A stretch of DNA of 19,884 nt from Bordetella parapertussis (GTDB taxonomy: Bacteria > Pseudomonadota > Gammaproteobacteria > Burkholderiales > Burkholderiaceae_C). The notes under the pieces are model-generated. The model saw only the letters and a list, made by a program, of their open reading frames with translations. It did no database searches and was not told the DNA's origin. Below, in pieces: positions 17,155 to 19,884 of this stretch. The translations under genes and the position numbers were made by a program. The stretch lies in NCBI GenBank assembly GCA_945871945.1, contig CAMBXY010000007.1:1-19884 (forward strand), given 5' to 3'. The stretch's first letter is position 1; each line of letters opens with the position of its first letter.

Positions 17155-17176
17155 CAACCCGCGATCCAAAGGGTTG
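17155..17176 (+). other. Weak hairpin after rodA
   Basis: CAACCC (17155-17160) and GGGTTG (17171-17176) can form a 6-bp stem with a 10-base loop just after the rodA stop. There is no T run behind it, so it is at best a weak or factor-dependent end of the rodA transcript. Confidence 0.25.
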
Positions 17177-17188
17177 TTGGTCGACTCT

Positions 17189-17194
17189 TACAAT
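17189..17194 (+). promoter_or_regulatory. -10-like box before tldD
   Basis: TACAAT matches five of six bases of the sigma-70 -10 consensus and ends six bases before the tldD ATG. Transcription from it would start at or next to the ATG, giving a leaderless message. No convincing -35 element lies 16-18 bases upstream, and no Shine-Dalgarno sequence is present. Confidence 0.4.
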
Positions 17195-17200
17195 AGCGCC

Positions 17201-18661
17201 ATGATTTCACGCGAACCCACCCTCGAGCGATTGACCATCGCGCAAAACCTGCTCCTCACCCCTTATGGTTTGGACGAATCCCATCTCACCCAAGCCTTGT
17301 CGGCCATTCGCGCCCACCAGGTCGATGATGCCGACTTGTATTTCCAATACACCCGCTCGGAAGGCTGGAGTTTGGAAGAAGGTATTGTCAAAACGGGCTC
17401 TTTCAGCATCGACCAAGGTGTGGGCGTGCGGGCAGTGAGTGGCGAGAAAACCGCCTTTGCCTATTCCGACGATATTTCCATGGCTTCGCTCATGGACGCT
17501 GCTCACACGGTGCGCAGCATTGCGACGGCTGGCTTGAGCGCCAGCACCAAGGTGCCAGCCCGAGTGATTGCGCCCAGCCGTTCGCTCTACATGGGTGTGG
17601 ACCCTATCGGCAGTTTGGACAGCACCGCCAAAGTTGAGTTGCTCGAGCGTTTGGAAAAGCAAGCCCGAGCCAAAGACCCGCGAGTGGTGCAAGTCATGGC
17701 TGGTCTGGCCAGCGAGTACGACGTGGTCATGGTGGCCCGTGCAGACGGCACCTTGGCCGCTGATGTGCGGCCTTTGGTGCGACTGTCTTTATCGGTCATC
17801 GTCGAGCAAAACGGTCGCCGCGAGAGTGGTTCGGCCGGCGGTGGGGGGCGTTTTGGCTTGGCCCATTTCGACGCCAACTGTCTCACCGGCTATGTGGAAG
17901 ACGCCGTGGGTTCTGCCCTCACCAATTTAGAGGCGCGACCTGCGCCTGCGGGCGAAATGACCGTGGTGCTGGGCTCGGGTTGGCCTGGCATTTTGTTGCA
18001 CGAGGCGATTGGCCACGGCTTAGAAGGCGACTTCAACCGCAAGGGTTCAAGCGCCTTCAGCGGCAAAATGGGTAAGCGTGTGGCGGCCAAAGGCGTCACC
18101 GTGTTGGATGACGGCACCATCGCCGACCGGCGCGGCTCGCTCAACGTCGACGATGAAGGCCACGCCAGCCAGAAAAACCTGCTGATTGAAGACGGTATTT
18201 TGGTTGGTTATATTCAAGACAGCATGAACGCCCGCCTCATGGGTGTGGCCCCCACGGGCAACGGCCGGCGCGAAAGCTATGCGCATGTGCCCATGCCGCG
18301 CATGACCAACACCTATATGTTGGGCGGCGACAAGCACCCTGAAGAAATCGTTGCCAGCATCAAAAAGGGTTTGTATGCCACCAACTTTGGCGGCGGACAA
18401 GTCGACATCACCTCGGGTAAATTTGTGTTTTCTGCCAGTCAGGCTTTTTGGGTGGAAAACGGCAAGATTCAATACCCTGTCAAGGGCGCGACCTTGGTGG
18501 GCAACGGCCCAGACGCGCTCACCCGCGTCAGCATGATTGGCAATGACATGGCTTTAGACCCAGGTGTGGGCACCTGTGGCAAAGAAGGTCAAAGTGTGCC
18601 GGTGGGTGTGGGACAACCCACCTTGCGAATCGACGGATTGACGGTGGGCGGCACGGCTTAA
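17201..18661 (+). CDS. tldD: TldD, metalloprotease of the TldD/PmbA pair
   Basis: Subunit of the TldD/TldE(PmbA) zinc protease, which degrades unfolded peptides and matures some ribosomal peptides such as microcin B17. The 486-residue protein contains the metal site WPGILLHEAIGHGLEGD, with the HEAIGH helix at 267-272, and family segments EGIVKTGSFSIDQGVGVRA and GRRESYAHVPMPRMTNTY. Length matches the family. I chose ATG 17201 over the upstream in-frame start at 17174, because MISREPTLERL is the usual type of N-terminus and the upstream part looks like untranslated promoter sequence. The partner pmbA gene is not in the window. Confidence 0.95.
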   Translation: MISREPTLERLTIAQNLLLTPYGLDESHLTQALSAIRAHQVDDADLYFQYTRSEGWSLEEGIVKTGSFSIDQGVGVRAVSGEKTAFAYSDDISMASLMDAAHTVRSIATAGLSASTKVPARVIAPSRSLYMGVDPIGSLDSTAKVELLERLEKQARAKDPRVVQVMAGLASEYDVVMVARADGTLAADVRPLVRLSLSVIVEQNGRRESGSAGGGGRFGLAHFDANCLTGYVEDAVGSALTNLEARPAPAGEMTVVLGSGWPGILLHEAIGHGLEGDFNRKGSSAFSGKMGKRVAAKGVTVLDDGTIADRRGSLNVDDEGHASQKNLLIEDGILVGYIQDSMNARLMGVAPTGNGRRESYAHVPMPRMTNTYMLGGDKHPEEIVASIKKGLYATNFGGGQVDITSGKFVFSASQAFWVENGKIQYPVKGATLVGNGPDALTRVSMIGNDMALDPGVGTCGKEGQSVPVGVGQPTLRIDGLTVGGTA

Positions 18662-18669
18662 AACACGTT

Positions 18670-18692
18670 CACAGGCTCTGAAAAAGCCTGTG
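18670..18692. promoter_or_regulatory. 8-bp dyad between tldD and the aro leader
   Basis: CACAGGCT (18670-18677) and AGCCTGTG (18685-18692) form a perfect 8-bp inverted repeat with a 7-base loop, CTGAAAA, nine bases after the tldD stop. It has no T tract, so it is not a canonical intrinsic terminator. Its right arm runs into the TG of the putative extended -10 box at 18691-18699. It may be a tldD 3' hairpin, or a repressor operator over the aro promoter; it does not look like an E. coli TyrR box. Confidence 0.5.
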
Positions 18693-18699
18693 CTACATT
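18691..18699 (+). promoter_or_regulatory. Putative extended -10 promoter for the aro leader
   Basis: TGCTACATT fits the extended -10 pattern TGnTAnnnT and ends seven bases before the leader-peptide ATG at 18707. A clear -35 is missing (TTCACA at 18668 would need a 20-base spacer), as is often the case for extended -10 promoters. Transcription would begin close to the leader ATG. Confidence 0.4.
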
Positions 18700-18706
18700 A
18701 CTTCCT

Positions 18707-18775
18707 ATGGCTTCTTTGCACTTTTACTTTGCTTATTTTTTCTTCTCACGCTGCGCTGGCGGTCGAGAGGTTTAA
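18707..18775 (+). CDS. Phe/Tyr-rich attenuator leader peptide
   Basis: A 22-codon frame running ATG to TAA. Residues 6-13 are FYFAYFFF, so five Phe and two Tyr codons lie in a run of eight, followed by SRCAGGREV. Placed 105 bases upstream of a DAHP synthase gene and 30 bases before an intrinsic terminator, this has the form of a regulatory leader peptide, as in the E. coli pheA or trp leaders. Its role would be to sense charged tRNA-Phe and tRNA-Tyr: ribosome stalling in the aromatic run should let the downstream gene be transcribed. No Shine-Dalgarno sequence is visible, so the peptide may be read from a leaderless transcript. Confidence 0.85.
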   Translation: MASLHFYFAYFFFSRCAGGREV

Positions 18776-18815
18776 ACGCAAACGATGCGATGAACCCCAC
18801 GAACCAACCGCCGGC
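18755..18815 (+). promoter_or_regulatory. Candidate antiterminator pairing
   Basis: GCTGGCGGT (18755-18763), inside leader codons 17-19, can pair with ACCGCCGGC (18807-18815) over nine base pairs including one G-U. The second partner contains the left arm of the terminator, so the two structures exclude each other. The first partner lies just after the aromatic codons and 10 bases before the leader stop codon: a ribosome stalled on Phe/Tyr codons leaves it free, while one at the stop codon covers it. This is the classical arrangement of segments 2 and 3 in a trp-type attenuator. A segment 1:2 hairpin is not evident. Confidence 0.65.
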
Positions 18816-18833
18816 CTCCGGCGGTTTTTTTTT
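18806..18833 (+). terminator. Intrinsic terminator of the aro attenuator
   Basis: AACCGCCGG (18806-18814) and CCGGCGGTT (18818-18826) form a perfect 9-bp GC-rich stem with a 3-base CCT loop, and a run of nine T covers 18825-18833. This is a canonical Rho-independent terminator. It lies between the leader peptide and the DAHP synthase start, so read-through is needed for expression of the enzyme. Confidence 0.92.
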
Positions 18834-18880
18834 GCCCTGCACCTTTTGCCACAGATTTGAAACGCTTCCAAGGAGCCTCC

Positions 18881-19884
18881 ATGAAAACCCCCAAGCTTGA
18901 TGCTTATGCGCCTATCAACGACCAAACCAGCCAAACCGATAACCAACGCATCAAGGACATCACCGTGCTGCCGCCTCCCGAACACCTTATTCGTTTTTTC
19001 CCGATCGCAGGCACCGCTGTTGAAACCCTGATCGCCAAAACCCGCCAGCGCATCCACAAAATCATGGCGGGCAAAGACGACCGATTGTTGGTAGTGATGG
19101 GCCCTTGCTCCATCCACGACCCCGCCGCTGCTTTGGACTATGCCCGCCGCTTGAAGTTCGAGCGTGAAAAATACGCCGACACCTTGGAAATTGTGATGCG
19201 GGTGTATTTCGAGAAACCCCGCACCACCGTGGGCTGGAAGGGTTTGATCAACGACCCGTATCTGGATGAGAGCTTTCGCATCGACGAAGGCCTGCGCATT
19301 GCGCGTCAGTTGTTGATCGAGATCAACCGAGCAGGCGTGCCGGCTGGCAGCGAATTCTTAGATGTGATTTCACCCCAATACATTGGCGACTTGATCAGCT
19401 GGGGCGCGATTGGCGCGCGCACCACCGAAAGCCAAGTGCACCGCGAACTTGCTTCGGGCTTGTCGGCCCCGATTGGCTTTAAAAATGGCACTGACGGCAA
19501 TATCAAAATTGCCACCGACGCCATTCAGGCTGCGGCGCGCGGACACCACTTTTTATCGGTGCATAAAAACGGTCAAGTAGCGATTGTGCAAACCCAGGGC
19601 AACCCAGATTGCCATGTGATTTTGCGCGGCGGGAAAGCGCCCAATTACGACGTCGCCAGTGTGGCGGCCGCCTGCAAAGAACTTGAAGCTGCGAAGTTAC
19701 CCGCCAGCTTGATGATCGACTGCAGCCATGCCAACAGCAGCAAACAGCATCAGCGTCAGTTGGTGGTGGCTCAAGACATTGCGCACCAGTTATCAGGCGG
19801 ATCGCACAGCGTGTTTGGCGTGATGGTGGAGAGTCACCTTAAAGCCGGCGCTCAAAAATTCACCCCTGGCAAAGACAAAGTAGA
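18881..19884 (+). CDS. aroG: Class I DAHP synthase (3' end cut off)
   Basis: First enzyme of the shikimate pathway: condenses phosphoenolpyruvate and erythrose 4-phosphate to DAHP. The frame opens at ATG 18881 after a perfect AAGGAG (18870-18875) and stays open to the window end (334 codons); about 20 residues should be missing compared with the 350-357 of the family. Landmarks are GPCSIHD (74-80, metal-binding Cys76), EKPRTTVGWKGLINDP, IGARTTESQVHRELASGLS, GFKNGTDG, QGNPDCHVILRGGKAPNY and MIDCSHANSSK. It resembles both the Phe-sensitive AroG and Tyr-sensitive AroF of E. coli, so the symbol and the feedback inhibitor are uncertain. The upstream leader suggests extra transcriptional control by both Phe and Tyr. 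Confidence 0.95.
   Translation, partial: MKTPKLDAYAPINDQTSQTDNQRIKDITVLPPPEHLIRFFPIAGTAVETLIAKTRQRIHKIMAGKDDRLLVVMGPCSIHDPAAALDYARRLKFEREKYADTLEIVMRVYFEKPRTTVGWKGLINDPYLDESFRIDEGLRIARQLLIEINRAGVPAGSEFLDVISPQYIGDLISWGAIGARTTESQVHRELASGLSAPIGFKNGTDGNIKIATDAIQAAARGHHFLSVHKNGQVAIVQTQGNPDCHVILRGGKAPNYDVASVAAACKELEAAKLPASLMIDCSHANSSKQHQRQLVVAQDIAHQLSGGSHSVFGVMVESHLKAGAQKFTPGKDKV

Follow-up and report, generated by a model that had tools for sequence, protein, structure and literature searches.

Neshat et al. (2014) is said to be the original report of the aroR leader of Corynebacterium glutamicum, a described case of a leader peptide placed in front of a DAHP synthase gene. According to the passages of PMC11802643 that deal with it, this leader of aroF carries the residues Phe-Tyr-Phe, and Phe limitation enhances transcription whereas Tyr has no effect; the leader is also treated in a part of PMC4046766. 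A second arrangement, the uORFC-13-1 motif of Acholeplasma, consists of a Phe-codon uORF with an adjacent terminator before aroF and is presented as a prediction in the relevant section of PMC8632094, which also mentions an old hypothesis of attenuation for aroF of E. coli. Attenuation by leaders with aromatic codons is described for E. coli pheA (pheL) and pheST in the corresponding passages of PMC11802643. For DAHP synthase in other Proteobacteria, the table of Merino 2005 (PMC1173090), in the portion considered here, lists predicted attenuators before Vibrio DAHP synthase–tyrA operons, and its Bordetella parapertussis entry is the gyrA-serC-pheA-tyrA cluster. Searches of open literature, which took in few subscription papers and no supplements, listed no description of an aroG leader for the Burkholderiales; an earlier prediction is possible, and Vitreschak 2004 and Lopatovskaya 2010 are likely places for one. 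The main text of a genome-wide terminator study (PMC2965389) contains none of the terms aroG, DAHP, and aromatic.

In the window, which is the whole stretch of 19,884 nucleotides analysed here, a leader peptide frame of 22 codons, MASLHFYFAYFFFSRCAGGREV, occupies 18707–18775 on the plus strand, from an ATG at 18707 to a TAA at 18773–18775, and is conserved in relatives. The initial annotation had described a 22-residue leader with FYFAYFFF at residues 6–13, and both the sequence and the open reading frames bear this out, with the aromatic run at 18722–18745. The window has 316 ATG frames of 12–45 amino acids, counting both strands, and no other reaches seven aromatic residues in nine; the next best has five in nine. 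An overlapping frame of 56 amino acids (18690–18860) was set aside because it is the 22-residue frame that recurs in relatives. Upstream on the same strand, tldD (17174–18661, NF008006) ends 45 bases before the leader. Downstream, also on the plus strand, a Shine-Dalgarno sequence AAGGAG (18870–18875) precedes the ATG at 18881 of a class I DAHP synthase gene of the aroF/G/H type, which is cut by the window end at 19884. This identification, likewise made in the initial annotation, holds: the gene matches the aroFGH model TIGR00034 with 497.8 bits against a cut-off of 173.2 and also matches PF00793, and the narrower AroG model NF006723 scores 501.3, below its cut-off of 568.

Between the two frames lies the intrinsic terminator that had been noted after the leader (18806–18833), and it recurs in relatives. 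Its stem joins 18806–18814 to 18818–18826 in nine pairs around a 3-base loop, and nine T follow at 18825–18833, the first two of which pair within the stem. The terminator alone is unremarkable, with two terminator-like sites found in 18000–19200 compared with 2.2 in shuffled sequences. Four plus-strand segments can pair in this region. Strand 1 (CTTCTC and GCTGC, 18742–18754) is predicted by local folding to pair with strand 2 (CTGGCGGTCGAGAGG, 18756–18770) in a putative protector hairpin. Within strand 2, CTGGCGGT at 18756–18763 is the 5' arm of a predicted antiterminator and is complementary to ACCGCCGG at 18807–18814. These bases belong to strand 3 (AACCGCCGG, 18806–18814), which has a CCGCC core and supplies both the 3' arm of the antiterminator and the 5' arm of the terminator, as it also pairs with 18818–18826 in strand 4 (CCGGCGGTT and the T tract, 18818–18833), the 3' half of the terminator.

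We propose that the DAHP synthase gene is regulated by ribosome-mediated transcription attenuation of the trp/phe kind, and we put the probability of this reading at roughly 90%. Transcription would begin at the leader AUG or beside it, with a ribosome trailing the polymerase through the aromatic codons. When charged tRNA-Phe or tRNA-Tyr is short (or, in many relatives, perhaps tRNA-Trp), the ribosome would stall in the run and leave strand 2 (GGCGG) available for pairing with newly emerging strand 3 (CCGCC), so that no terminator would form and the gene would be transcribed. With a good supply, the ribosome would cover strand 2, strands 3 and 4 would pair, and transcription would stop in the T tract near 18833.

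Relatives of the locus retain the elements that such an attenuator would use. In an alignment of 62 sequences (the window and leaders from the best 80 loci, not chosen for the cores), GGCGG is found in the leader of 60 and CCGCC in the terminator 5' arm of all 62. Over a larger set of 131 leaders, GGCGG is read in phases 0, 1, and 2 in 41, 7, and 83 cases, respectively, and is translated as different residues; it is therefore the RNA, not the peptide, that is conserved at strand 2. Three positions beside the cores were compared: in strands 2 and 4 the one immediately 5' of GGCGG, and in strand 3 the one immediately 3' of CCGCC. Taken in the order of strands 2, 3, and 4, they read C/G/C in 46 of the 131 leaders and T/A/T in 36. 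At these positions strands 2 and 3 form a standard pair in 101 leaders, compared with 78.6 expected from independent columns, and a non-standard one in 30. This covariation partly reflects clades, and the rules and model used to collect the leaders themselves require the cores. The linked changes are those expected of mutually exclusive antiterminator and terminator helices, and the GGCGG/CCGCC/GGCGG cores and linked flanks of an antiterminator that excludes the terminator are present in silico.

The same comparison bears on a different role for the leader, through a trans-acting peptide or through its terminated RNA as an sRNA, with attenuation in cis secondary. For peTrpL/rnTrpL of Sinorhizobium meliloti, part of PMC7298713 reports functions in trans, and a short terminated RNA is expected at the window locus too. 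However, lineages differ in the sequence, length, and reading phase of the C-terminal half of the peptide and yet keep the RNA strand, and because pairing in cis accounts for this pattern, we consider a primary role in trans improbable.

The spacing within the leaders can be compared with what a stalled ribosome would cover under cis attenuation. From the last aromatic codon to GGCGG, the mean distance is 14.2 bases (s.d. 3.3), with 113 of 131 leaders in the range 11–17; the aromatic run ends about where the front edge of a stalled ribosome meets GGCGG. In a simple stall model, the ribosome has a 16-base footprint that begins with the P-site codon, and folding precedes the synthesis of strand 4. 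For a ribosome positioned at the last aromatic codon, 2:3 pairing is likely in 105 of 131 leaders; three codons later, it is likely in only one. The model allows the antiterminator from some Phe codon in 128 of 131 leaders, from some Tyr codon in 119 of 124, and from some Trp codon in 73 of 75. For the window, the antiterminator probability before strand 4 exists is 0.94–0.99 for ribosome positions up to codon 14 and 0 afterwards. When the full window RNA is taken to equilibrium, the terminator has a probability of 0.59–0.51 for stalls at codons 2–8, 0.44 at codon 9, 0.07 at codon 10, 0.70 at codon 11, and 1.0 from codon 12 on. As the terminator is at equilibrium equal or superior to the antiterminator for most stall positions, switching must be kinetic, with strands 2 and 3 pairing before strand 4 appears. 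Kinetic switching is as in the trp model. Early stalls at aromatic codons give a weak antiterminator even before strand 4 in two (L034 and L064) of the seven leaders listed.

The protector hairpin formed by strands 1 and 2 has a local fold of −13.5 kcal/mol in the window (z = −2.28). Its mean z over the 131 leaders is −1.14, with 71 values below −1 and two above 1. The antiterminator is likely without any ribosome in 60 of the 131, so the hairpin is weak in many leaders. We regard a 1:2 hairpin as moderately supported across leaders; a stronger one had been expected. The stop codon lies at least 16 bases past the start of GGCGG in 103 of 131 leaders (15 bases in the window), and at a distance of at least 16 a ribosome resting at the stop would leave strand 2 partly uncovered.

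In the leaders of relatives, the aromatic run is kept as amino acids and not as fixed codons. Both synonymous codons are used over the whole leader frames, with 374 TTT and 221 TTC for Phe and 129 TAC and 112 TAT for Tyr. This usage is relevant to a further alternative, in which an RNA-binding protein or a metabolite governs strands 2, 3, and 4 and the aromatic codons are part of a pyrimidine-rich site. Although the run is U-rich, its conservation as amino acids through both synonymous codons, the presence of TGG before GGCGG in 76 of 131 leaders, and the lack of an Rfam family matching the window element make this alternative very improbable, more so than a role in trans. Rfam 15, where the initial annotation had proposed to look for a matching leader family, gave no match in the window, and a permissive search of 18500–19000 returned six, all far below the gathering score.

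If the ribosome is the sensor, as we propose, the codons suggest what it may respond to. The 131 leaders comprise 75 with Phe, Tyr, and Trp, 50 with Phe and Tyr, four with Phe only, and two with Phe and Trp; all three residues precede GGCGG in 74. Trp also occurs in the leader of 17 of 20 additional family genomes. It is absent from the window, from G001, the nearest of the genomes compared (L094, MALLHFYFAYFFFSRCAGGREV), and from a genome of the same genus (L215, MSSARFYFAYFFISRPHGGREI); the L094 leader differs from that of the window in two codons and is identical to it from the stop to the T tract. The history of the family is likely to have been that of a three-way sensor narrowed to Phe and Tyr in the window's genus. 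Only tentatively do we extend this to the Burkholderiales, which may carry an old three-way aromatic sensor that opens DAHP synthase when any one of Phe, Tyr, or Trp is short, in the manner of an OR gate on tRNA charging, and that the window's genus has narrowed to Phe and Tyr. E. coli controls its DAHP synthase genes with TyrR and TrpR; a three-way leader would do this in one RNA. Which amino acids matter can be suggested from the codons, but a leader codon alone is no proof of a response. For the Phe-Tyr-Phe leader of C. glutamicum, Tyr availability is reported to make no difference, so that a merging of two end-product signals by the window's element, as the initial annotation put it, is no more than a possibility.

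Also part of the three-way reading is that the leader is initiated without a Shine-Dalgarno sequence and, within the window's family, right at the 5' end of the transcript, which we offer as a plausible suggestion and not as a firm assignment. No Shine-Dalgarno-like word precedes the window leader, and only three of 131 leaders have one 4–16 bases before the ATG. An extended −10-like element (TGC-TACATT, 18691–18699, plus strand) is the probable leader promoter, with a start expected near 18706–18707. In 62 of the 131 leaders, including that of the window, the extended −10-like word TGNTANNNT ends 6–9 bases 5' of the ATG; of the remaining 69, 61 have no −10-like word within 60 bases and eight have one farther off. 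From this spacing, the leader transcript may begin at the AUG or within a base or two of it. There is a precedent in S. meliloti: part of PMC7298713 states that the leader-frame ATG is where the trpL RNA starts. A promoter scan that requires a −35 hexamer missed the element at 18691–18699 and reported its sole site elsewhere. That the leader is translated is likewise suggested by its sequence. An inverted repeat, CACAGGCT...AGCCTGTG, at 18670–18692 overlaps the presumed leader promoter and is called a minus-strand terminator-like site in the terminator scan; it could be an operator or a structure at the end of tldD.

Conservation was assessed at several levels of relatedness. A leader with a terminator precedes the related gene in 61 of the best 80 loci, which are the best-scoring of a longer list encoding relatives of the window's DAHP synthase, under a rule that requires an aromatic-rich short frame and a downstream GG-then-T run and nothing else. 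A model, R1, was built from the aligned leaders, with base pairs for the terminator only. Some R1 match at E ≤ 0.01 occurs in 146 of 300 genomes of the order, many of these matches being terminator-only; short matches in this search were taken as bare terminators and left out of the counts. Full-length matches at E ≤ 3e-7 were found in 77 of the 300 genomes, from 14 families, and not in the other 223, and a DAHP synthase gene lies beside the match in all 77 loci. The nearest of the genomes compared, G001, shares 35% of the window's sampled words, and in a sample of 150 genomes from its family, 146 have a full-length match with E of 2.3e-10 or better; the four without a match are 55–90% complete. 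DAHP synthase is present at 27 of 28 further family loci, and the other, L193, ends before the gene position. A class-wide draw of 369 genomes gave seven R1 matches, three of the family and four others, all four before DAHP synthase. The aromatic run and terminator, whose absence from close relatives the initial annotation would have taken as evidence against it, are kept in relatives, and at the level of sequence its interpretation of the locus as an attenuator is supported. A chance aromatic frame beside a terminator that serves only to end the upstream tldD transcript would suit the nearness of tldD on the same strand and the ordinary frequency of terminator-like sites, but aromatic frame, GGCGG, and terminator recur jointly before DAHP synthase, with model matches in nearly all family genomes, which leaves this the least probable of the alternatives, with next to no weight.

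The leader is associated with one copy of the enzyme. In 12 genomes searched for DAHP synthase, ten have two copies and two have one (including G001, which is 82% complete). The leader match lies directly before the copy most like that of the window in all 12, and no leader element was found upstream of the second copy in any of the ten. At one second copy (L206), a frame with five aromatic residues in nine overlaps a terminator, and the arrangement is absent.

Not every related gene has the leader. The 171 sources considered, the window and 170 loci, include 131 with a leader by the strict rule, 28 with DAHP synthase and no leader, and 12 without DAHP synthase. Two of the 28 (L002 and L170) lie at an edge, and seven (L022, L042, L099, L111, L132, L152, and L154) show a frame that fails the stricter pattern; L146 has a reduced frame and L150 has none. 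As several of the 28 carry looser aromatic frames, the absences are somewhat overstated. The strict rule accepts 70 of the 77 full-length order loci; five others (L099, L111, L132, L152, and L154) have an aromatic frame by a looser rule, and L146 has its reduced frame. The other 17 of the 28 have no leader by the looser rule (L030–L033, L036, L045, L047–L050, L066, L072, L073, L076–L078, and L080); they include Polynucleobacter, Cupriavidus, Thauera, Rhodocyclus, and Azoarcus, some outside the Burkholderiales. In one family (L138, L146, and L150), the run shrinks (FFFTF, HFTF) or is gone, as in L150, where the aromatic run is lost and the pairing strands are kept; decay of the sensor is a possible explanation. 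L031 and L036 (Polynucleobacter) and L047 have no aromatic leader and carry instead a similar short TTG frame (MREGRAKRSSRGWTAYPKD and like), starting 163, 163, and 140 bases upstream of the DAHP synthase match, respectively.

Leaders of the same style are also found away from DAHP synthase. Full-length but weak R1 matches at L155–L158, in four genomes that belong to a single genus of the order (L171 and L172 are longer stretches of two), mark such leaders at loci without DAHP synthase. In L155 the leader MVTFSVVYNVYFYWYRSSGGAKGC has a Tyr/Phe/Trp run followed by a GCCGCC...GGCGGC hairpin. The gene after the L155–L158 leader encodes an uncharacterised protein of ~205 amino acids, and its copy in L172 has no Pfam or NCBIfam match. 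A second aromatic attenuator, here in front of an undescribed gene, is one possibility. DAHP synthase is likewise absent from L162–L169. At L166, where the match is weak (E = 0.001), a frame MKTHALNKSFAHDYWYCLNRRYLLRVLKK and a terminator precede a protein that resembles, by eye, that of L155–L158.

An attenuator of this kind would offer a simple mechanism, open to experiment, for governing entry into the shikimate pathway across a large order whose aromatic regulation is otherwise easily deduced from the E. coli repressors. The RNA element is absent from Rfam 15, and with it almost every family genome sampled is predicted to make a short terminated RNA and a leader peptide. It is also a candidate for a natural sensor that monitors several aromatic tRNAs together.

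Several known systems resemble the locus in part. Like C. glutamicum aroR, it has a Phe/Tyr leader peptide before a DAHP synthase gene, a likeness drawn from description; C. glutamicum is an Actinobacterium and three aromatic residues are named in its leader, whereas the window's run has eight positions, seven of them aromatic. The uORFC-13-1 motif shares an aromatic uORF and a terminator before 3-deoxy-7-phosphoheptulonate synthase, but it belongs to Acholeplasma, has Phe only and another RNA consensus, and is a prediction in the section of PMC8632094 that presents it. Attenuation by an aromatic leader is common to the window and to E. coli pheA and pheST, which respond to Phe alone and have other target genes, whereas the window has both Phe and Tyr codons. 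S. meliloti trpL concerns another operon and amino acid and has a known start site, whereas the start in the window is placed at the leader AUG by inference. The Vibrio attenuators of Merino 2005 involve DAHP synthase in Proteobacteria, as does the window, but in another genus and operon, and the part of PMC1173090 that lists them mentions no leader peptide. Leader-peptide attenuation is already known; what is distinctive here is the Phe/Tyr/Trp codon content and the layout with a presumed start at the AUG.
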